A stretch of 33,636 bases of DNA from a bacterium (lineage in GTDB: Bacteria; Patescibacteriota; Minisyncoccia; Phycocordibacterales; SBAW01): contig JAKBZO010000006.1 in the NCBI GenBank assembly GCA_021839985.1, forward strand, positions 1 through 33,636. Direction: 5' to 3'. Positions 20,701 to 33,636 of the stretch are shown in pieces (position 1 is the stretch's first letter; each line of letters begins with the position of its first letter). The position numbers were made by a program, and so were the translations under genes. A model generated the notes under the pieces. The model had not been told where the DNA came from, made no database searches, and saw only the letters and a list, made by a program, of their open reading frames with translations.

Positions 20701-20862
20701 TTACTTTAGGAACCTCAAAAAGAATGCGGCACACACCAAGATAATGCCGACGTTGGCAGCAAGCCGTTCCCAAAAATGATCTCTGAAGAACAGCACATCA
20801 ACACCGACGATAACGGCAACCATACCGATAATACAAACCGTGAGCAACAGAGGTTTTGTCAT
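20701..20862 (-). CDS. Small (53 aa) two-TM membrane protein absent from the ORF track
   Basis: Reading the minus strand: MTKPLLLTVCIIGMVAVIVGVDVLFFRDHFWERLAANVGIILVCAAFFLRFLK*. Confidence 0.7.
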   Translation of the reverse strand: MTKPLLLTVCIIGMVAVIVGVDVLFFRDHFWERLAANVGIILVCAAFFLRFLK

Positions 20863-20899
20863 TATTTAAAGTATACACCCGAGCAGTTCGGACACGATC

Positions 20900-20915
20900 G
20901 CTCCGGCGGTAGGAC
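20900..20915. repeat. attL candidate: 16-bp direct repeat of the tRNA-Asn 3' end
   Basis: gctccggcggtaggac, identical and same orientation as 32472-32487. Confidence 0.75.
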
Positions 20916-21008
20916 CGTGGGTACACTTTTCTCCCTCGACTAAACACTCGCCGTCGCTCGTGTTTGTCTGGGCACCGCCTCGCTCCCACATCTGCTGATG
21001 TGGGGCCC

Positions 21009-21062
21009 GCTCCGGCGTTCGAGTCCTACACGGGAAGTGCACCGCACTTCCCTCGCCGGAGC
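21009..21062 (+). other. tRNA-Asn 3'-end relic interrupted by a 24-nt palindrome
   Basis: GTTCGAGTCCTAC (21017-21029) + 24-nt insert (21030-21053) + CGCCGGAGC (21054-21062). Removing the insert gives the exact 22-nt 3' sequence of the tRNA-Asn at 32473-32543. Confidence 0.65.
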
Positions 21063-21104
21063 ATATGAAAAGACCGCCGTGATGGCGGTCTTTTCATATG
21101 CTCC
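21058..21104. terminator. Very long perfect hairpin, probably bidirectional terminator
   Basis: ggagcatatgaaaagaccgcc-gtgat-ggcggtcttttcatatgctcc; 21-bp perfect stem with internal A4/T4 tracts. Confidence 0.6.
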
Positions 21105-21208
21105 GTACTCGGGTCGTCAACTTTAGGACTTCAACCCCCACAAGGGTTTTTGAGCAATTTCAATATAACATGCAGGACAGGGATGGGTCAGATTAGGTTG
21201 TTATCCAC

Positions 21209-23007
21209 TCAAGCAATTTTCCAAGTCTCTGCATAGGCTTTGTGGGAGAGAGTGCGGGCTCTTTCGTCGATGGAAGCAAACAATTTGTCGCGCGTCATCC
21301 AATCTTTTCCATTGAAATCCTCAACGAATTCATGAACCAATGGCAGCTTTAGTCCGAACTTTTTATATATTTTTTCTACTTTTTCTTGCGCTAGAGGAAT
21401 ATTTTGCGCCCTCGAGTTTGAGTGGAGAGAAATCACCATCAAATTACCGATATTATTTATGTACTCACGATCGCCCTCGTTAGCATAATCATACAGATCA
21501 CTTTTCTTGGGGTTCATGTGATCAATATTGAAGTTCTTTTTCGATATACGAAGATCAGTGTTGTAGATCTTTTCTCGGTCAGCTCCTCGTCGGCCATTGT
21601 TATTTAATCGATCGAATATGTAATAAAGCATTTTGAACGATGTCTCGCCAGGCTCGTAAGACAGTCCGGTGAAATTATCAGTAAACGAATCTATCTTTTC
21701 CTTCCGTTCGGTGAGTCCTGATATGACAGAATCAACCAGCTTATTGAGTGAAGTACTCGATTCCGCGATCTCTTTACTTTTTTCAGCATAGAATTTCTCT
21801 ATCTCGTTGTTCGGCTTCTTGCAGATAGCATTGTTAATGAAGTGAAAGCACTCCAATGCATGCAAAAGCCGCGCAAACTGCTCCATGTCAGATTCTGTGG
21901 TGCCTTCTTTTCTGATTATACGGTCGTAGGTAGCACTGACCAATGGTAAGTATTGAGAGACTTTAAAAAGTTGAAGTGCTCCTATCGAATCACATATACT
22001 TCCCAATACATATTCTTTGATCTTGGTTTTTTTACTAATACTTTCAATGAGATATTCTTCAAGTTCCTTCCTATTGGCACTAGTGAAGTTGTAGTAGCGC
22101 TCAGAGAACTCCTTGAGTCGTGCGAGGAACTCTTTAGCACCCAAGTCCTTTACGAGTGTCTTAAGTTTTTTATATAGTTCGTTCTTGCGCACATGACCTC
22201 TATTGGAGATATAAAAATATCGCAATAGCCGCACGAGATCATTGTCGGAATTTTTGAATATCTCCTCCCAATCGGTACTGATTTCTTCTTCAGAGAGTTG
22301 ATGAGTGAAGAGATGGTTTTTAAGTAGTTCAGCCGCGTTAAGCTCTATGCCGCGCGCATTCATACGCTCGAAGATATCAAGAGCCTCTAAATCATCAGAA
22401 ATCTTAATCACTACGAAATAGCAGCGATTTCGTAGTGTGTCGAGCAAATGCTGGATGTTTTCTTTACGATTGAACTTATTATCTTCAATATTCAGGGTAA
22501 AAAAATCGTAAACGGGTCTTATTCGCCGAACCTGAAGCTTAATGTGCTTACTGCCAATCTTAGGTACAAATTCACCGTCCCATTTTTGATCGACCATTTC
22601 GTTATAGATATCGGCGATGAGATGCGAGGTTTTCATTTTTGGTCTGGATTCCGTCGCCATGATGTCTGATGATCCTAAGTAGGTGTTCTGCAACTGCATC
22701 GCTGCCTCGCGTAATTTTAGTTTTTTCTCAACTTCGCGGATTGCGATAAATAAAAGTGATATTGTAGTTAGTCTCTGTTGACCATCGACCACAGAACAGG
22801 AGTTCGTTCCCTCGCTTGTTTTAAGGACTATCGTTCCCAAAAAACCCTCTTGTTTTCATCTTCCACAGCATCCATGAGGTCATTCCAAAAGTCGGAGGCC
22901 TGTTCACGACCCCATTCAAATCCGCGCTGGTTGAGCGGGACCTTAATTTCTTCATACTCTTTCAGTACGCTGTCGACTGTCTGTGAGAATGGTTGGAGTT
23001 GAGCCAT
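21209..23007 (-). pseudogene. DUF262 + DUF1524 (GmrSD-like restriction) gene split by an apparent -1 frameshift at a T6 run
   Basis: N-terminal part 22828..23007 (MAQLQPFSQTVDSVLKEYEEIKVPLNQRGFEWGREQASDFWNDLMDAVEDENKRVF) continues in the other frame as LGTIVLKTSEGTNSCSVVDGQQRLTTIS (21209..22840). DUF262 DGQQR motif; C-terminal NIDHMNPKK...NIGNLMVIS as in DUF1524/HNH. Confidence 0.8.
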
Positions 23008-23546
23008 AATGCGGACGGGTCGGATTCACCCAAGTTATCTGCTCCGCATGGTGCGCAACGTTCGAACGGCAGCGTACGAGAGCATGTTGCCTCCACGCCG
23101 CACGCATTTACCCAGCGAACAAGCCGTATTCACCCCCTAATCGCACGCGTGTGCGATTCTTCTGACAAAGTGGCATGTTGAGCAGGTCGGAATGGCAGCC
23201 GCGCGCGTGGACAACGTGGGACGGTGTGCGGCCCACCGAGAGTACATCGGTGCCTCCAAGCCGGCCCCACCACCCGCCACACGACAAAATGAAGAAAAGC
23301 TATGAATGAAGCCAAAAGCAGCAAAAAGCCCGTGGCGCAAAATGTCGCTTCTCGCGCGTAAGGCCATAACTGTCGCTTGTGTCTCTGAGCACCGTACACG
23401 CCGTGGCGGGTTTGCACGGGTCTGCATTGGAGGGAAGGAAGATAAAATGGCGCAAAACTTATGGATTTCAATAAAAACGCTGTTATTCCTATGCCGATTT
23501 GTGCGGATTTTCTCGCGCGCGTACGCGCGAGACCGGTTCTGTCTTA

Positions 23547-24713
23547 TCAGCCCCTCTTCAACGGCCCATCAAACAGTGTTGTCGAGATTGTTTCTGCGCC
23601 TTCCTCGAGACCTTGCTTCACCATGAGATACGACTGATCGCCGAGCAGGATGCCGTGACGGTTCGGTTTCGTAGATGCAATAAAGTCGAGACCACCGCCG
23701 ATCGCGTTTGCCCACGACTGGTGATGGACGACCCCGTTCGGCGCATGTCCGGGAATCGGGTTCGATGGCTCCGTCAAGTCACGGGTGGGCACCGGGAATG
23801 AGAGAGTTTGCTGTCCTAAGACGGCGGTCATCACGCCGTAGTTACTATCGAGGAGTGACTCTAGAAAAATAAGGTAACCATTCAAGTGTTCATCAGCCTG
23901 CTTCGCGGGTAGCTGGAACGCTTGGATTTTGTCGAGAATCTTCTTTTTGATGCGCTCCGACGGACTAATCGAACGGCCCGGCCCTCCACCGCCGACCCAT
24001 TGACCGAGGCTGCCCTCATACGCCCGGCGGAACTCGAATCGGATGACATCCCTTCCGTCGATGGTGTACATGCGCTGCGCTTCGTCGTCTTCGTCTTTCA
24101 GGTGGATTGTAGGAATGGCGGCTTCCACGAAGGCGACGGCTTCGGCAACGCGTTCCTGTGGCAGGAAATCTCGCATGTGCGAGCTCACGAAATACGGATT
24201 GCCGGCGAGCTTGTTGATACCGATGACGAGCGCGTTGTGCACCGCCTCCTCTTCGAGCGTCGCTTCGGAGTCGTTTATCGAAAGGATCTCGAGGTAAATG
24301 GGTTTTTCCGTCTTTATGAGCAGATCGGGCCGCCGATCGCCGATGTTGCGGGTCGGCTTCCACTCAACATCGAACCCGCGACCGCGCAAGGCATGATACA
24401 CGTCCACCTCGCGTATCGCGCCCATAAGTTCGCCACGCGTCCGCTTCGACTTCAGATCGGAGATGAAACGTGCAGCGTTCGGACTCTCGCTCTTGAGCCT
24501 GAGGAGTGCCTCCGCGATGCGCCGATTGCCGAGCGGGTTCGCAAGCTCCCAGAAGAGCGGGTGAACGTCCGCAGTGCCCATGCCGGTGGTGCCGGTCGAC
24601 ACGAGCCAACCCGAACCAAAGAGAGTATCGAGCTGGGGATACGCGCAGATGAGAGTGGTGAGGTCTTCCACCTGGTCTTGCTTCACAAGTCCGACAAACG
24701 CATCAGGATCCAT
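23547..24713 (-). CDS. Hypothetical protein with possible PD-(D/E)xK nuclease-like segment
   Basis: EVDVYHALRGRGFDVEWKPTRNIGDRRPDLLIKTEKPIYLEIL resembles the E...RPD..(V/L)E core; divergent from the methyltransferase gene. Confidence 0.6.
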   Translation of the reverse strand: MDPDAFVGLVKQDQVEDLTTLICAYPQLDTLFGSGWLVSTGTTGMGTADVHPLFWELANPLGNRRIAEALLRLKSESPNAARFISDLKSKRTRGELMGAIREVDVYHALRGRGFDVEWKPTRNIGDRRPDLLIKTEKPIYLEILSINDSEATLEEEAVHNALVIGINKLAGNPYFVSSHMRDFLPQERVAEAVAFVEAAIPTIHLKDEDDEAQRMYTIDGRDVIRFEFRRAYEGSLGQWVGGGGPGRSISPSERIKKKILDKIQAFQLPAKQADEHLNGYLIFLESLLDSNYGVMTAVLGQQTLSFPVPTRDLTEPSNPIPGHAPNGVVHHQSWANAIGGGLDFIASTKPNRHGILLGDQSYLMVKQGLEEGAETISTTLFDGPLKRG

Positions 24714-24821
24714 ACTCCGATTTTACCTTGCGATGATGGGAAGAAAAATACCGCCGCTGTTCCTTCGCCTGACTGCAACTTCGCCGAACATCTTATTTTA
24801 TGCCAGTGATACAATGAGGGT

Positions 24822-26522
24822 ATGAGAGTTAGCACTCAAAAAGGACAACTCGCACAATCCTTCCTCCCGGGTCTTTCTCGAGTCCAATCGGCCGTAGACG
24901 AACTGGCTGAAGCAAAAACCGACGATCGCGGCGCAATCTTCACACGGCGGGAGGTAGTGGATTTTATACTCGATCTCGCCGGTTATTCGGTCGACAAACC
25001 ACTACAGGACTTCCGACTGCTGGAACCATCCTTCGGGCACGGTGATTTTCTTATACCAGCTGTCGAGCGTCTCATAGCATCGCTCGCGCGGCAAAACCTG
25101 CGGCCAACAGCAGCCCTCCTCAAAGACAATATTCGCGGCGTGGAGCTCCACGTCGCCTCGTTCGGCAAAACGGCCGGCGAAGTCCGGGACATCCTCATCC
25201 GAAACGGACTACTGGAAAGCGATGCAAATGACCTGCTTGACGCATGGCTCGTGCGCGGCGACTTTCTCCTCACTCTCTTCGGTCACTCCTTCACGCACAT
25301 CGTGGGTAACCCTCCGTACATCCGGCAGGAAATGGTGCCGGACGCGCTCATGGCGGAATACCGTCGCCGGTTCGAGACGATCTACGACCGCGCAGACATC
25401 TACGTGCCGTTTATCGAGTACTCGCTCAAGCTGCTCGACGAAGGAGGAGTGCTCGGCTTCATCTGTGCCGACCGCTGGATGAAAAACCGCTACGGCGGTC
25501 CGCTCCGCGACCTCGTGGCGGGAGAATACCATCTTCGCACCTACGTCGATATGATCAACACGGACGCTTTTCACTCGGAGGTGATCGCGTACCCGGCCAT
25601 CACGGTGATCGCACGCGAACCCTCCGGTCCGACGCGCATAGCCAAGCAGCCGGAAATAGACGCACGCACTCTCGCGCAGCTCTCGCAAGCGCTGACACAG
25701 GATGCTCCGCACGGTGACATCCTCCAGACAACCGTATCCGCCGGCGGACCATGGACACTCGACGAGTCGGAGGCGCTCACGTTGATACGCCGCCTCGAAG
25801 CTGAGCTCCCGACGCTTGAAGAAACGGGCTGCAAGGTAGGCATCGGCGTAGCAACCGGCGCGGACAGCGTGTACATCGCACCGTTCGACACGCTCGACGT
25901 GGAGTCGGACCGGAAGCTCCCGCTCGCCATGACCAAAGACATACAAAGCGGAGTGGTGGAGTGGCGGGGTCTCGGCGTGGTGAATCCCTTCGATGAAAGC
26001 GGCAAGCTCGTGTCGCTCTCCGACTACCCGAAGCTGCGCGACTATCTCGAACGTCACGGCGATGCGATCAGGAAGCGCCACGTATCGAAGAAGAACCCGA
26101 ACGGCTGGTACCGGACCATCGACCGCATCTACCCGGAGCTCGTCACAATACCGAAACTCCTTATTCCGGACATCAAAGGCGACGCCCACATTGTCTACGA
26201 GGAGGGCAAGTTCTATCCGCACCATAACCTCTATTACATCGTATCGGACGACTGGGATTTGCAGGCGCTCCGGTCGGTACTCACGTCCGGCATCGCGCGT
26301 CTCTTCATCGAAGCGTACTCGACGCGCATGCACGGCAACTGTCTGCGCTTTCAGGCGCAGTACCTGCGACGCATACGCGTACCGCGATGGGCTGATGTGC
26401 CGAAGGATCTCCGACGCCAACTGCGCGCCGTGGCCGAAAAGGACGACGTGGCCGCGCGGGAAGACGCCGTCTCACGACTCTACTCCCTCTCGCCGTCCGA
26501 ACGTGCTACGATCAGGAAGTAA
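24822..26522 (+). CDS. Type II N6-adenine DNA methyltransferase (Eco57I/TaqI-like class)
   Basis: [38 protein letters not shown]; motif [14 protein letters not shown]-terminal DNA-recognition-like region. Stop overlaps the next ATG (TAATG). Confidence 0.92.
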
Positions 26523-27256
26523 TGGCTGTAAATCTCGCACAGTACGAAGACGGCGCTAAGCGCGCCGTAAAACTCTTCTGGGGCAACCGCGCCGCCGCAG
26601 TAAAGCAGCAGCTTGCCGCCGGAACGGTCGACCACGGGACACGCGGAGCGGTGACCGCCGGGAAGAATATGGACGGCTTTGCGTCGCTCATGGCGAGACT
26701 CGTGGAGGCGAATGGCCTCAAAAACGCCACCGTGATTCACGGCGGCCGTCTTGTCACGCTGCCCGGTTTCTTTCGGCCGACCAAACAGTGGGATCTGCTT
26801 GTGTTGAACGAAGGCCGCCTCATTGCCGCGCTCGAATTCAAGTCGCAGGTCGGCTCTTTCGGCAACAACTTCAACAATCGAACCGAGGAAGCGATCGGGA
26901 CTGCACATGACCTATGGACTGCATACCGCGACGGCGCGTTTGGCGAGCAGCCGAAGCCGTTCGTAGGATGGCTAATGCTTCTTGAAGATGCACCGGGTTC
27001 CCGTACCCCGGTGAATGATAGCTCCCCGCACTTCCCAGTGTTTCCGGACTTCAAGGGCGCATCTTATGCAGATCGTTACAACATCCTCTGTAAGAAACTC
27101 GTGCAGGAAGGGCTCTATACTGCTGCTTCCATCATGCTCTCGCCACAGACGGCACAGAACAGCGGTGAATATGCGGACATGAGCGACCTCACCAGCTTGC
27201 AGACTTTTGTCGCGACATTCGCGGGACATGTTGCAGCGGAAGCTGCTCGGAAATAG
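26522..27256 (+). CDS. Type II restriction endonuclease, XhoI/PaeR7I family (predicted site CTCGAG)
   Basis: [88 protein letters not shown] closely resembles XhoI as remembered. Confidence 0.9.
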
Positions 27257-27806
27257 TCAAAGTGCCCATCCCTTCCGTGGCAGATCTCTTTTAGCTACTG
27301 TGAACAGTCCTAGTCCACAAACTAAGCGATCGCGTCGCAATACTCGACGCGGCCACGAACTGACAGAGAAAGTGCTCGAGTGGTGCCGCTCACAGTACCC
27401 GAATCTGCGATTCGAGACGGAAGTAACCTACCGGCTTAATCCGCAGGTCGTGGACGGTATTTCAAAGCCGTACTTCAGGGCTGACGTCGTGGGATTCAAT
27501 ACGAAAGGCAAAGAGGTACTGGGAATCGAGATAAAATCGATGCGCGACCACGACACGTTTAGAAAAACCGCCACGGCTATCGGTCAGGCGATGATACTGA
27601 AAGCTGCTTTTGGCAAGGCAATCATGGTGTTCGAGGTGGACCAGACATTCAAGAGCTACAAGTTAGGCCGCTACCAATGGCTCACGAACATAAACTCCGA
27701 GCAAGGTATCGGGGTAGCATTCGTTCAAAAGAGCGTTGCCTTAATCGAGCCGCCGAAGCAGGGCAAGGCACCGGGCCGCACCCTCTTCACACGGCTTAAG
27801 CGGTAG
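27207..27806 (+). CDS. PD-(D/E)xK nuclease-like protein (start uncertain; GTG at 27300 possible)
   Basis: [57 protein letters not shown]-x13-ExK core followed by the QAxxLK.A.GKA pattern. Confidence 0.7.
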
Positions 27807-27816
27807 CGATCCCGTC

Positions 27817-28305
27817 TCAATTTGCCCACTTGATCAAAACGCGGCCCCGCTCGTCTTTGAAGATCCCCGCGGCAATCATGATCAAGTCCACGAGTACCCA
27901 GACGCCGAGGCCGCCGAGAGTAAGCAGCATCAGGATGCCTGTGCCGACCTTGCCGACGTAGAAGCGGTGGACGCCGAGCACACCGAGGAACAAACAGGGA
28001 AGCAGCGCAATAAGTCTGAGCTTAGGAGACGGTGGTAGCGCCGATGCGCCCATTGCCGCAGACGTTGTGAGTCCTCTCGAGTCGACCGTGGGATCACTAC
28101 CGTTTTTTACTATCCGACGGAACGTCATTATGCGAGGGCTGCCGAATAAATCGCTCGTCGTGTTCATCATCTCCCAGCCATCCTTTGCCAAGTTCTCCGT
28201 TGCTGACGCCGCTCGTGCTGGAAAACGCATGGTCCAAAAACCGTACAACCCCCTGTTGCGCCTCATTAGATTGACCGTTTTGTATTCGTAGTTTTCAGAT
28301 CCCAT
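27817..28305 (-). CDS. TM2 domain-containing membrane protein
   Basis: RLIALLPCLFLGVLGVHRFYVGKVGTGILMLLTLGGLGVWVLVDLIMIAAGIFKDERG is a TM2 signature. Confidence 0.9.
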   Translation of the reverse strand: MGSENYEYKTVNLMRRNRGLYGFWTMRFPARAASATENLAKDGWEMMNTTSDLFGSPRIMTFRRIVKNGSDPTVDSRGLTTSAAMGASALPPSPKLRLIALLPCLFLGVLGVHRFYVGKVGTGILMLLTLGGLGVWVLVDLIMIAAGIFKDERGRVLIKWAN

Positions 28306-28326
28306 AGAACATCTTGCCTAGGGCAA

Positions 28327-28953
28327 CTAGAAATTGAACCCGTTGATGACGGCGTGCTTCGAGATGTCATTCCCGGTCAGTCGGTCGGTCGCAGTGTAGG
28401 CTTCGATACTCATGCTCGTGGCGGTGGGCGCGTTTACGTCGATCTCAAGTGTGCCGTCTGCCGGAATTTCGCCTTCAGGCATCGGCAGGTACCATTGATC
28501 GGTCGGCCAGACGTTCTTGGCATCGAGCGAAGTTGCGCCGAAGGAATTTTCCATCAGGTGTCCGCCCGTGCTTACGGAGAGAACTGGCGTGCCGCGAGGC
28601 ACGGTGATCGCGATGCTGTTAAGGATGACTGGATCCTTCCCGGCCGTAATGAAGAAGGTGCCGAGCGTCCCTGGTGTGATAGTGAGAGCCGACGCGGGAG
28701 CTGGAGTGGGTGTCGCTACCGGCGTCGACGCCGGTGTGACCGTAGCGGTCGGCGGCGTTTGTATCGGCGTTGCTACTGGCGCCGTCTGCGTTGCCGTCGG
28801 AAGCGGTCCCGTGTTACCGACCGGGGCAGTCATGACGACCGTCGCCGGCGTTGCGGCGTTCGTGAGGATCGCGTTGACGTTGTTCACGGTCGACTGCGAT
28901 ACCCCGAATGATAAGAGTAGTTGTAGAATTGCTGCGATTTGTAATGCGGTCAT
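28327..28953 (-). CDS. Hypothetical protein with Pro/Thr/Ala-rich linker and beta-rich C-terminal domain
   Basis: MTALQIAAILQLLLSFGVSQSTVNNVNAIL + TPIQTPPTATVTPASTPVATPTPAPAS linker; RBS gaaaggatc before ATG. Confidence 0.7.
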   Translation of the reverse strand: MTALQIAAILQLLLSFGVSQSTVNNVNAILTNAATPATVVMTAPVGNTGPLPTATQTAPVATPIQTPPTATVTPASTPVATPTPAPASALTITPGTLGTFFITAGKDPVILNSIAITVPRGTPVLSVSTGGHLMENSFGATSLDAKNVWPTDQWYLPMPEGEIPADGTLEIDVNAPTATSMSIEAYTATDRLTGNDISKHAVINGFNF

Positions 28954-28990
28954 AGTGATCCTTTCGCTTAATTGCTAAGCAACTGAATGC

Positions 28991-29105
28991 GGGAAACTGA
29001 ATGGCTACAGAAAACCCGCCACGGGTTCCGGCTTGCGCCGGACGTACAGGTTTCCCCATACGGCGGATCACGCAACCCCATGACGGGTTTTCTATGCGTG
29101 ATCCG
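28991..29105. ncRNA. Candidate structured RNA / cis element (strand not determined)
   Basis: Closing helix gggaaac/gtttccc around two perfect hairpins (aacccg-cca-cgggtt; tccggc-ttgc-gccgga), then an 11-bp helix cggatcacgca/tgcgtgatccg with inner accc/gggt. Confidence 0.45.
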
Positions 29106-29243
29106 ACCGGAAGCCATGCCACCGTTGCCGATGGTTTAGGCCCTGCCCTCTCGGGCTATTCAATTGTTCCTAAATGTTAGCATCGGCGGCGCGTAAGTAC
29201 CACTCCTTTTGCTAGCGGCGGCGATGGGGCCTAGAATGGAGTA

Positions 29244-30008
29244 ATGACGGCGGCAAACGATCTCGATGTGCGACGAGTTGAGTTTATAAGCGATCGGTTA
29301 AAGCAACGACTTAAGCAATCCGGAAAAACCTCTCTCATTTTTACCTTTGAAGAAATAGAGCAAATGCCATTATTCGGCAACCGCCTTGCGTTCGTTCATA
29401 CTCTCGAACTCATCCAAAAGCATTCCAAGAGAATGGTGTGTTTTGATAGCGCCGATAGCCCGCAGCAAATCCTGCCCGGTGGTTTCAGATCACCGGGCGG
29501 AAGCTCAGTCATGGACGCATTCGGTTCTGTGTTACCGCCGACGATCGTGCCATCGCAGCCGATTGGCTACACGGTGTCCATCACGTCTGACCCGAAGAAA
29601 CTCGATGTGTATTTCAACATGGTGCAAAAAGGAATCACGTCAAAATTCGAAGGCAGAGAGATTCGCTCCATTGAGGTGATTGAGAGTGATGTAGATTCAA
29701 AGGCTACTTTCATGATCAACGAAAACCCCGAGCACTGTCTGAAGCTGAAGCCGAAAAACTACTGGGAGAAATTAGTCGATGTCGCGAAGGACGGATCCAC
29801 CCACAGTAATAACGCCCGAGCCGTTGCTGACTACTTCAACAGCAACGACAAATGCCCCCTGTACACAAAGACCAAGAGAAAAAACTTCGGGTACACCCTG
29901 ACGCGTTTGTTGGTGGTCGACAACGATACTCTACGCCCTGCTCTGGGAGTTCGAATAGAAATAAAAACCCGCAAATCCATTGCTCAAAGAAAGAAGAAAA
30001 CCGCTTAA
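29244..30008 (+). CDS. Hypothetical protein
   Basis: 254-aa ORF in an accessory region, followed by an intrinsic terminator. Confidence 0.65.
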   Translation: MTAANDLDVRRVEFISDRLKQRLKQSGKTSLIFTFEEIEQMPLFGNRLAFVHTLELIQKHSKRMVCFDSADSPQQILPGGFRSPGGSSVMDAFGSVLPPTIVPSQPIGYTVSITSDPKKLDVYFNMVQKGITSKFEGREIRSIEVIESDVDSKATFMINENPEHCLKLKPKNYWEKLVDVAKDGSTHSNNARAVADYFNSNDKCPLYTKTKRKNFGYTLTRLLVVDNDTLRPALGVRIEIKTRKSIAQRKKKTA

Positions 30009-30044
30009 GATTACTTAAGTGTGGATAACTCCAGTGTCGAGAGG

Positions 30045-30079
30045 AATCCGCTGTGAAAAATCAGCGGATTTTTTCTTTT
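30045..30079 (+). terminator. Rho-independent terminator
   Basis: aatccgctg...cagcggatt followed by tttttctttt. Confidence 0.9.
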
Positions 30080-30122
30080 ACAAAAACCAGCTTGAGTAAT
30101 TTTTATTTGGGATTCTGCGACC

Positions 30123-30332
30123 ATGCTTCCTTCGAAGGCACGGCGCGAACTTAAAGAAATTATAGCACGCGATTACGGCGTGATGATCTCCGACGACCAA
30201 GCAGAGGAACTTGGTGTTTCTCTGCTGCGCATTACTCGTGTGGGCCTCGCTGCTCTCGCCCGAGCGAACGACCAAAGGTCGCTCGTTCAGGCGAGGGAAA
30301 GCAATTCCCTCGAGAGCAAAACAAGCGGGTAG
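30123..30332 (+). CDS. Small hypothetical protein
   Basis: MLPSKARRELKEIIARDYGVMISDDQAEELGVSLLRITRVGLAALARAN: coding-like amphipathic helices; the C-terminal third may be read-through. Confidence 0.55.
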   Translation: MLPSKARRELKEIIARDYGVMISDDQAEELGVSLLRITRVGLAALARANDQRSLVQARESNSLESKTSG

Positions 30333-30348
30333 GAATGTCCGCCTCTGC

Positions 30349-30492
30349 CAAGCCCCGGGCGAATCTGTACAGGGCTTGTAAAAACAAAACAGGTACAGGA
30401 TGGCTCCGTGATCCCGCGGTACAGGGATGGCCGAGTATCGGCGTAAAAGCCAGCCACTGGTTGCGGTGTAGCGAGAGGTTCCTAACGCAACC
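30349..30492 (+). ncRNA. Candidate multi-helix structured RNA upstream of the recombinase
   Basis: caagccc/gggcttg; ctgtac/gtacag; tggct/agcca enclosing atccc/gggat and ccga/tcgg; ggttgcg/cgcaacc; no convincing ORF. Confidence 0.4.
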
Positions 30493-30604
30493 ATGCTTCA
30501 GCAGCGGAATGCGCTTGCGCTCCTCCGACTGACAACTGGAACCAAGTCGCCCTCCGGGAGAAAACGGATCAAGGGCACGGCGATACCTCTTAGGCAACAG
30601 CCAT

Positions 30605-30634
30605 GGGGTAAGGGGGATTTAGGGGGTTCAGGGG
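30605..30634 (+). other. G-quadruplex motif
   Basis: GGGG-taa-GGGGG-attta-GGGGG-ttca-GGGG. Confidence 0.75.
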
Positions 30635-30761
30635 CTCTGGCACTCGGGCCAAGTATCAGCATTATCAGGTTCTTCACTTCCAAGCGAATTATGGACTAGC
30701 TATAAAACGTGTTCTCGATACTGTTCGTTGTAAGCAGCATTAAAAATCAACTCCTAAAACC

Positions 30762-32483
30762 ATGAAAACAAAACACGCAAAATTGAATTACAAACCATAC
30801 GCGCGCAAGTCGAGTGAAGCCGAAGACAAGCAAGCGCTCTCGATCGACTCGCAGAAAGACGAACTCAAGAAACTCGGCGCGAGCAAAGGAATCGCGCTAC
30901 ACGACGACGACTTCCTGACCGAAGCGCACTCGGCAAAGACCGCATTCGCGCGGCCCGTCTTCGAGCAGCTGATCAAACTCATTGAACAGGGCAAGGTGCA
31001 AGGCATCATCGTGTGGCATCCGAACCGACTCTCGCGCAACGCCGTCGACGCCGCGCGTCTCATCCAGCTCATGGACGAGGGCAAGCTCGTTGAGATCGTC
31101 ACGCCGAGCCAGACTTTCCGCGACACACCGCAGGACAAGTTCTTCTTCACGCTCCTTACGAGCCAAGCGAAGATGGAGAACGACGCCAAGGGTATTGACG
31201 TGAAGCGCGGCCTGCGCAAGAAGAACGAGATGGGGTACCCGGCCGGCGTCGCAAAGCTCGGCTACATCAACGACTACGGCGAGAAGGGTTCACGCAAGCT
31301 CATGGCCGATCCGGAGCGCTTCGAGCTCGTGAAGCAGCTCCTCCAGATGTTCCTTACTGGCAAACACTCCGCCAGAGCGCTCCTGCGGTATTCAAACGAT
31401 GTGCTGCACATTAAGACCATTCAACGCAAGAAAGAGGGCGGCCGGCCGATCCAGCTCTCGCGCATTTATGCCGCACTTCGCGATCCGTTTTATGCCGGAT
31501 TTTTCTACGGTACCGACGAGAACGGCGAGACGAAGCGGTACGAGGTCAACGAGGCCGTGCCGCGAATGATCACGGAGGTACAGTATTGGCAGATTCAAGA
31601 CATGCTCGGCCGCGACGGCGTGCCGCGCCCGATCGTCAACAAGGATACCTTTCCGTACGCCGGCAGGACACGCTGCGGGAATTGCGGCGGTACGGTGATT
31701 GCCGAGCATAAGCATCAGCTCATCTGCCCGAAATGCAAGCACAAGTTTGCATACCGCAACAAAGAGGCCTGCCCGAAGTGCGACGCGCGCATCGACCACA
31801 TGGAAGGCGCGACCTACCTCCACTACACCTACTACCACTGCAACTGGGGAAAAAACGTAACCTGCAAGGAACCGAGCATGGAGGAGACGAAAATGAACGA
31901 GTCGCTCGCGAAACGCGCCAGCGACGAACTGGAGGCCTCCTCGGCCCTTAGCGAGTGGTGCATCGCGAACCTCGAGGTCATAGCCAACGAGGAGCGTAAG
32001 AACGAATATGAGCGCAAGGCGGGACTGGAGCGCGAGCTTGCGCAGAAGGAGAAAGAGAGCGCCGAGCTCATCCGGATGCGCATGAAAGGCCTCATCGAGG
32101 ATGATGACGAGTTCCTGAGATACAAAGAGGCGTTGGAGATCGAGAAGCGCCGCATCAAGGGCGTGCTCGCTGACATGCGTGGCACGGACACCGCGAGCCT
32201 TGAGGAAGCCAAGAAGGCGTTCAGGACGATAGTCGGTCTGAGCGAAGTCTTCAAAAGTGGCACTTTCGAGGAAAAACAAGAGGTCTTGTCGGCTCTCGGT
32301 TCGAACCTAACGTTGAAGGCGCAAATCCTCAATATTTCCAACAAAAAACTGTTCTCAGTGATCTCAAAAGGGCTACTTGAGGCACGACGCAAAAACCCCA
32401 CGTTCGAACCTAGAAAATACGAGGCAGATAAAGACGAAACCGACACTTTCGTGTCGGTTCGTCCTGCTTTGCTCCGGCGGTAG
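30762..32483 (+). CDS. Large serine recombinase (resolvase + recombinase + zinc-ribbon domains)
   Basis: YARKSSEAEDKQALSIDSQKDEL; VQGIIVWHPNRLSRNAVDAARLIQLMD; GYPAGVAKLGYIND; zinc ribbon CGNCGGTVIAEHKHQLICPKCKHKF; C-terminal coiled coil. Confidence 0.95.
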   Translation: MKTKHAKLNYKPYARKSSEAEDKQALSIDSQKDELKKLGASKGIALHDDDFLTEAHSAKTAFARPVFEQLIKLIEQGKVQGIIVWHPNRLSRNAVDAARLIQLMDEGKLVEIVTPSQTFRDTPQDKFFFTLLTSQAKMENDAKGIDVKRGLRKKNEMGYPAGVAKLGYINDYGEKGSRKLMADPERFELVKQLLQMFLTGKHSARALLRYSNDVLHIKTIQRKKEGGRPIQLSRIYAALRDPFYAGFFYGTDENGETKRYEVNEAVPRMITEVQYWQIQDMLGRDGVPRPIVNKDTFPYAGRTRCGNCGGTVIAEHKHQLICPKCKHKFAYRNKEACPKCDARIDHMEGATYLHYTYYHCNWGKNVTCKEPSMEETKMNESLAKRASDELEASSALSEWCIANLEVIANEERKNEYERKAGLERELAQKEKESAELIRMRMKGLIEDDDEFLRYKEALEIEKRRIKGVLADMRGTDTASLEEAKKAFRTIVGLSEVFKSGTFEEKQEVLSALGSNLTLKAQILNISNKKLFSVISKGLLEARRKNPTFEPRKYEADKDETDTFVSVRPALLRR

Positions 32484-32487
32484 GACT
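32472..32487. repeat. attR candidate: 16-bp direct repeat inside the tRNA-Asn 3' end
   Basis: gctccggcggtaggac, identical to 20900-20915. Confidence 0.75.
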
Positions 32488-32543
32488 CGAACCTACAACC
32501 AACTCCTTAACAGGGAGCTGCTCTACCATTGAGCTACACCGGA
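32473..32543 (-). tRNA. tRNA-Asn (anticodon GTT)
   Basis: Minus strand: acceptor tccggtg/cgccgga, anticodon loop ctgttaa, T-arm gtagg-ttcgagt-cctac; CCA not encoded. The D-stem closing pair looks irregular as printed. Confidence 0.9.
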
Positions 32544-32810: not shown

Positions 32811-33636
32811 TCACCTCCTCAGAAATATCTGACGCGGACTCTTGAATCCAAGGCGCTTGCGTGGCCGGTCATTGAGGAGGCGCACTGAATGGGCAAGTTC
32901 CTCAGGACTGATCAGGTTGAAATCGAGATTCTTCGGGAAATACTGCCGCAACAGACCGTTGGCGTTCTCGTTGGTGCCGCGTTCCCACGCATGGTACGGG
33001 TATGCGAAGTACACCGTCATGCCGCTCTTCTTTTCCAAGTGCTCCCAGTCGCTGAACTCGGTGCCGTTGTCGAGCGTGAAGGTCTTTCGCTGTGCTTTTG
33101 GGATGCGACTGAAGCACTTGAGCGCGAGCGACGTGAGGAGTTGCGCCCGCATCTTGGGCAGGAGGAAAGCGACCAGGTACCCGCTCCTGCGGTCGACGAA
33201 CGTGACGATGCGCACGCGTTTGTCGCGACCCATGACCGTATCGCCCTCCCAGTCGCCGATCCGGGAGCGTCGTTCCACGATCGCAGGCCGCTCGTCGATG
33301 CGGCGCTTCTTTGCTTGCTCCCTGGCTTTCTCGCGGATCTTTGTACCGCGCCTGCGTCGGTATGTTCCTTTCTGGCTTCGCAGGAATCGCTTCAGGTGCG
33401 GCGTGCGCTCGTCGAGGTACCGGTATATGGTGCTTGCCGCAAGCACCCGTCCTTTGGTGGCAAGCGCACCGCCGATCTGTTCAGGAGACCGGTGTTTTTT
33501 CAATTCTTTCACGACCGTACGCAGGAGTGCGCCCTTGAGCGCCCGAATGCCATCCATGGCGGCAACACGCAGCATGCGCTTCCTTCGGCGCACTTCGCGC
33601 ACATCGTATGCGCTCCTGCCTCCATTGCGTGCGATG
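32811..33636 (-). CDS. IS30-family transposase, N-terminus cut by window edge
   Basis: RIGDWEGDTVMGRDKRVRIVTFVDRRSGYLVAFLL; LDNGTEFSDWEHLEK; YFAYPYHAWERGTNENANGLLRQYFPK; LLNDRPRKRLGFKSPRQIF. The frame stays open to the edge (IARNGGRSAYDVREV). Confidence 0.93.
   Translation of the reverse strand, partial: IARNGGRSAYDVREVRRRKRMLRVAAMDGIRALKGALLRTVVKELKKHRSPEQIGGALATKGRVLAASTIYRYLDERTPHLKRFLRSQKGTYRRRRGTKIREKAREQAKKRRIDERPAIVERRSRIGDWEGDTVMGRDKRVRIVTFVDRRSGYLVAFLLPKMRAQLLTSLALKCFSRIPKAQRKTFTLDNGTEFSDWEHLEKKSGMTVYFAYPYHAWERGTNENANGLLRQYFPKNLDFNLISPEELAHSVRLLNDRPRKRLGFKSPRQIFLRR

Follow-up and report, generated by a model that had tools for sequence, protein, structure and literature searches.

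The 33,636-nt stretch of DNA analysed here (contig JAKBZO010000006.1, from a patescibacterium of lineage SBAW01; hereafter the window) carries a gene for a large serine recombinase that runs into the 3' end of a tRNA-Asn gene and that appears to have been cut in two by its own integration. The explanation that best accounts for the locus is one of two successive insertions at this tRNA gene by elements whose attachment site (attP) lies inside the recombinase gene, such that integration severs the gene. Taken as a whole, we consider this explanation very probable.

The recombinase open reading frame (ORF; 30762-32483, plus strand) specifies 573 amino acids in its integrated form. Pfam recognises Resolvase (E-value 4e-24), Recombinase (1.1e-4) and DZR_2 zinc ribbon (3.3e-4, below the curated cut-off) domains, and the active-site residues Y13, R15, S17, R64, R89 and R92, with the nucleophilic serine in a YxRxS motif, are invariant in eight relatives. 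The target is the tRNA-Asn(GTT) gene (32471-32543, minus strand; called by ARAGORN and matched by the Rfam tRNA model in its own genome), the 3' end of which serves as attB/attR. A preliminary description of this DNA had identified the recombinase and placed its last codons, CTC CGG CGG TAG, inside the tRNA gene, and both points stand: the final codon and the stop are read from antisense tRNA, and the protein ends in LLRR. That the tRNA sequence supplies the TAG (32481-32483) is likewise correct; that this codon belongs to the att core is not, as it lies outside the 6-bp core GCTCCG whose right copy (attR) is at 32471-32476 on the plus strand.

The same six base pairs, identical and also on the plus strand, mark two left ends of the recombinase type, one at 21100-21105 and one (attL) at 23041-23046; each left end shares this 6-bp identity with the tRNA end, in place of the 16-bp att core first proposed. 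At 23041 the G+C content rises from about 0.4-0.47 to 0.57, whilst the core at 21100 cuts the terminator palindrome of an older tRNA-associated element described below. We read the region, previously taken to be a single island, as a tandem pair: unit A spans 21100-23040 and unit B 23041-32476 (plus strand). Read on in the recombinase frame past the core, the start of unit B gives LLR followed by MVRNVRT, the beginning of a putative severed C-terminal tail, LRMVRNVRTAAYESMLPPRRTHLPSEQAVFTP (23042-23140, plus strand, ending in a stop codon), that would give a 602-residue protein if joined to the ORF at 32470. Unit A begins with what seems to be a degenerate remnant of such a tail, LRTRVVNFRTSTPTRVFEQFQYNMQDRDGSD (21101-21196, plus strand, also ending in a stop), which is one codon longer before FRT than usual. 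A hairpin with an 8-bp stem (23139-23158) overlaps and follows the stop codon of the unit B tail and could be a terminator in the circular form.

Comparable tails are found in related islands, where the left ends read LRTLEDVRTSL, LRTVEAIRTW, LRGLEDIRTC, LHMLNEVRTL and others in the recombinase frame. We tested this geometry, defined as a tRNA-end 4-mer, six residues and [VIFL]RT, against random 4-mers of equal G+C content in 300 trials. Twenty matches were obtained in 14 of 24 islands. The opposite strand gave one, and the random 4-mers averaged 0.84 with a maximum of 4; one of the 20, situated within the recombinase region of G174 at 927 nt from the tRNA, has the look of a chance match. The tails of genomes G009 and G326, which have sister recombinases, are identical at 35 of 46 positions, with 8, 7 and 18 differences at codon positions one, two and three. 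In L175 and L023/L176, homologues from elements other than that in the window, a comparable tail lies within one uninterrupted ORF. At the level of sequence comparison, these results show a tail conserved as coding DNA and a recombinase gene split by integration, with attP inside the gene. An AlphaFold2 model of the unsplit homologue L023 (two sequences) was uninformative, with a mean pLDDT of 41.

The tRNA ending recurs elsewhere in the order. In 397 of its genomes, together with loci found earlier, 27 recombinase ORFs stop inside tRNA genes, mostly tRNA-Asn but also tRNA-Gln, tRNA-Ser and tRNA-Tyr. In a recombinase tree these ORFs fall into several groups of long recombinases, beside a few with their ends elsewhere, whereas no member of a group of 13 short recombinases ends in a tRNA. 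Identity between attB and attP is short throughout, at 6 bp in the window and 6-9 bp in relatives. A scan of a collection of genome contigs gave one locus. At L007 (tRNA-Gln), L005, L173, L185 and L195 the ORF enters the tRNA gene by 30-60 nt and takes its last 10-20 residues from antisense tRNA.

On the explanation that we favour, unit A would have inserted first at the 3' end of tRNA-Asn and unit B later, next to the tRNA, each by recombination within the GCTCCG core. With attP some 30 codons short of the native stop, integration would cut the gene, placing its first 572 codons against the tRNA, where antisense tRNA adds one codon and TAG, and stranding the conserved tail of about 30 residues at the far left of the element, 9.4 kb away. 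The recombinase would be 573 residues long in the chromosome and a predicted 602 on the circle, the existence of which we infer. Loss of the tail would make integration one-way, probably through loss of activity, and units would be expected to pile up and decay at the tRNA. In G017 (L083/L084, G017:C1), five strict left ends lie in tandem 4.2-17 kb from tRNA-Asn with a single damaged recombinase; we regard these as the fossil trace of successive insertions, a pattern that accumulation of units would produce.

The explanation makes specific predictions. The circular junction should join 32447-32476 to 23047-23090, reading GTCCTGCTTTGCTCCG and then CATGGTGCGCAACG, and should carry GCTCCGCATGGTGCG, whereas the attP of the preliminary description would be the 16-bp repeat and then CGTGGG. 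Excision would not regenerate the same stop codon, as had been supposed: on the circle, translation should continue through MVRNVRTAAYESMLPPRRTHLPSEQAVFTP (23048-23140) and stop after it. A circular junction would read GCTCCG followed by CATGGTGCG or by TACTCGGG. An empty site should read CTTTTCATAT joined to GCTCCGGCGGTAGG or, with only unit B absent, CAAGTTATCT joined to GCTCCGGCGGTAGG.

The repeat on which the single island was founded seems to have a different source. The 16-mer GCTCCGGCGGTAGGAC is exact and in direct orientation, with its left copy at 20900-20915 as described and its right copy at 32471-32486, one position to the left of the 32472-32487 given before; the right copy is indeed the 3' end of tRNA-Asn in the minus-strand ARAGORN call. 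The whole 736-kb genome contains no further site with one mismatch or fewer, and shuffles of the window give a chance expectation of 0.07 matches at two mismatches or fewer. The left copy belongs to a tRNA-associated structured element (20900-21105, plus strand) comprising this tRNA 3'-end copy, hairpins, a T-arm copy, TTCGAGTCCTAC (21018-21029), and a terminator palindrome (21057-21105). The roughly 200 bp that follow the left 16-mer are also present in relatives, immediately 3' of other tRNA genes. They define a family of noncoding, palindromic elements of about 150-200 bp that directly follow the 3' ends of many tRNA genes and of a tmRNA, and in each of which the tRNA 3' end is copied in antisense and the T-arm in sense; further examples are L131 (G000:C3), L102, L104 and L127, the last of which adjoins the tmRNA.

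For 68 of the 79 distinct members of this family, the 3' end of a tRNA or tmRNA is located no more than 300 nt away on the other strand. The mean longest match to the neighbouring tRNA is 11.5 nt for the tRNA-end copy (5.4 for permuted tRNAs, maximum 6.25 of 500) and 10.2 nt for the T-arm segment (5.9, maximum 6.54 of 500). The structure covaries strongly and has almost no G-U pairs: in an alignment of nine copies, 26 of 36 predicted pairs are changed on both sides, and across the 79 sequences 90% of cells pair, compared with 33-42% when the structure is slid. With a covariance model, 31 of the 41 genomes in the taxonomic family give matches, with 14 strict copies in this genome and none in G003, a member of the same genus; Rfam offers no convincing family for 20850-21250. 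The scarcity of G-U pairs hints at pairing at the level of single-stranded DNA, and one idea is that the elements act as folded attachment sites like those of integrons or CTX. The likeness of 20900-21105 to integron attC is structural only (palindromic, strongly covarying, few G-U pairs), the R and L boxes recognised by IntI being a feature of attC. Y1 transposases and a dedicated tyrosine integrase were each considered as the mover and rejected, as their occurrence does not track element copy number; this genome has no Phage_integrase match.

When the tRNAs of this genome were picked on tRNA score alone, nine of 25 proved to be followed, 174-216 nt downstream, by a 10-nt copy of the 3' end, with no island there; none of the 25 has such a copy upstream, and none of 21 tRNAs in G003 has one downstream. 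This genome thus has about ten repeats of the kind, the 16-bp one among them, and no recombinase island is needed to explain it. The terminator palindrome adds to this. At tRNA-Lys, tRNA-Cys and tRNA-Tyr of the same genome it runs 9-10 nt into the tRNA 3' end and measures 27, 23 and 30 bp, respectively, other elements of the family having a shorter stem. In the window the palindrome breaks after GCTCCG at 21105. Removing 21106-32476 in silico (21105 joined to 32477) extends it from 22 to 25 bp, with a 9-nt reach into the tRNA that resembles the three sister tRNAs, and G044 has the same arrangement, with GCTCCG and then TATCG after a structured element of its own. The older, unrelated element would have provided the 16-bp repeat, and the first recombinase unit would have parted it from its tRNA.

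An empty site in relatives, suggested earlier as a check, was found at one level only. G007 and G023 have fmt and HPF 3' of tRNA-Asn, as in the window, and no recombinase at the tRNA, and G007 has a structured element there; these are empty sites by gene order, not by sequence. Overall, what the preliminary description observed is partly confirmed and its interpretation is partly supported.

How do other explanations fare? That a single 11.6-kb island is bounded by the 16-bp repeat, with its stop regenerated on excision, gains from a repeat that is exact and unique in the genome and of which one copy is a tRNA 3' end, yet we find it very improbable. Joining at the 16-mer would also delete the structured element and the terminator that are kept at sister tRNAs. 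Nor do related islands show a long second copy of the tRNA end: not even 8 nt of it recur over 38 kb of G009 and G017 or over 11 kb of G052. The left boundary in G009 could not be placed by synteny. Together with the nine island-free copies, the rejoined palindrome and the tail geometry conserved at the recombinase-type left ends, this leads us to reject the 16-mer as the recombinase core, and that the repeats bound the island is not confirmed. Alternatively, the conserved left-end sequence might be a DNA motif, an attP arm bound by the recombinase, with an incidental reading frame. The att sites of serine integrases have conserved arms, the spacing from the core is near-constant and TTAGAAC recurs in several left ends. 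This is nonetheless unlikely: third codon positions are the most variable in the 46-codon tail pair, where the match reaches far past any att arm, the offset in unit A is exactly one codon, VRT is spelled GTTAGAACC, GTTCGAACG and GTCCGAACC, and two homologues keep the tail in one ORF. The sequence may be both protein tail and DNA motif at once.

A more serious competitor accepts the cut and holds that it is harmless, the tail being dispensable and the 573-residue form still able to excise, possibly aided by a separate directionality factor. In most integrated ORFs 530-620 codons are intact, and only about 30 residues are lost whilst the catalytic N-terminal domain stays. Conservation of the tail between families suggests that it has a function, however, and the excess of left ends over recombinases (five strict ones in G017, two in the window) suggests accumulation without excision; we give a harmless cut somewhat less than an even chance. 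Other observations weigh against self-cutting integration itself. The intact recombinase is assigned to the left end at 23041, not 21100, by inference from spacing and G+C content, and the unit A end departs from the usual spacing by one codon. The geometry test gave no match in 10 of 24 islands, several regions being short or at contig ends, and was not blind, as the motif was first recognised on some of the tested islands. A few long recombinases, as noted, lack the tRNA ending, and neither a circular form nor an exact empty site of the window locus was seen.

The cargo of the two units differs. Unit A is low in G+C, has no recombinase and carries a GmrSD/HEC-06-like type IV restriction gene (21209-22840, minus strand; Pfam and PADLOC). 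The GmrSD N-terminus probably starts from an ATG at about 23007 in another frame, with a frameshift at a T run near 22840. Unit B has an XhoI restriction-modification system, consisting of an Eco57I-like type II DNA methyltransferase (24822-26522, plus strand; Pfam E 1.1e-20, PADLOC MTase_II E 1.5e-231) and an XhoI-family endonuclease (26522-27256, plus strand; Pfam E 1.8e-89), together with a TM2-domain protein (27817-28305, minus strand; Pfam E 1e-18), genes of unknown function and the recombinase. Pfam gave no match to conjugation, replication or virion genes among the ten island ORFs, some of which lack any assignment. Where the window has XhoI type II and GmrSD systems, related islands carry other cargo: a type I system with PDC-S28 in G309 and an AlwI-type system in G326.

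On the other side of the locus the contig soon ends, and an rve-domain (IS30-like) transposase gene (32811-33602) occupies the space just upstream of tRNA-Asn, so that the right flank cannot be compared. The orientation of tRNA-Asn relative to fmt-HPF is reversed with respect to most relatives. In many relatives (L053, L067-L072, L172 (G413) and other family members) a group I intron (Rfam Intron_gpI, 57-73 bits) interrupts the tRNA-Asn(GTT) anticodon; the window tRNA has none. In G413 and G001 the recombinase end abuts an intron-bearing tRNA-Asn gene.

In fold the recombinase belongs with the SPbeta integrase YokA (PDB 9dxh) and other large serine recombinases (profile E 2.9e-20, profile positions 14-505 of 575), the match ending before the C-terminal segment with attP and the tail. 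Homologues in phages and plasmids are distant only, at below 30% identity among the matches listed. Elements with serine recombinases seldom use tRNA genes, although cases are known (PMC3218068), in line with the earlier remark that such use is unusual; examples are phage RSM1 (tRNA-Ser) and Mycobacterium AICEs (tRNA-Leu). These share integration at a tRNA gene by a serine recombinase. The passages on these elements report no gene splitting, however, whilst the window recombinase runs antisense into the tRNA and the cargo seen with it is of the restriction-modification kind, the Pfam matches including none for conjugation or phage functions.

The closest parallel in logic comes from the archaeal suicidal (SSV-type) integrases of SSV1, pTN3 and pT26-2, where attP lies in the integrase gene and integration, typically at a tRNA gene, splits it, leaving fragments at both element ends and sometimes trapping units in the chromosome (PMC8371274). 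The window recombinase would likewise have attP in its gene and be split on integration at a tRNA. Those enzymes are tyrosine recombinases with the catalytic part in the C-terminal fragment, whereas here a bacterial serine recombinase keeps its catalytic domain and appears to lose only a C-terminal tail of about 30 residues; being a serine recombinase, it works like the archaeal enzymes but is not one of them. Mycobacteriophages with integration-dependent immunity also place attP in a phage gene, integration removing the 3' end and changing the protein (Broussard et al. 2013; PMC9934374), but there the cut gene encodes the repressor, which loses a degradation tag, rather than the recombinase itself. 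In the open-access literature self-cutting had been reported only for archaeal tyrosine integrases; we found no account there of a bacterial or serine suicidal integrase, which is not proof of absence.

If true, a bacterial serine-family case would mean that a second recombinase superfamily had come to this strategy independently, and would provide a natural test of the role of the C-terminal end of large serine recombinases in directionality, a property wanted in genome engineering. The locus also cautions those who scan genomes that a tRNA-end repeat, even a perfect one, is not necessarily the att site. Tentatively, and at rather less than even odds, the tail may be a directionality determinant in cis in a bacterial serine recombinase lineage with an integration switch: the full-length protein (about 600 residues), expressed from the circle, would integrate, the version truncated at the tRNA would be unable to excise, and the tRNA would act as a one-way ratchet on which defence modules accumulate; as a separate part of the same proposal, the 200-bp tRNA-associated elements could be mobile but non-autonomous, with a single-strand attachment site that folds. 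The locus suggests how Patescibacteria-like bacteria with tiny genomes gather restriction systems at tRNA genes.

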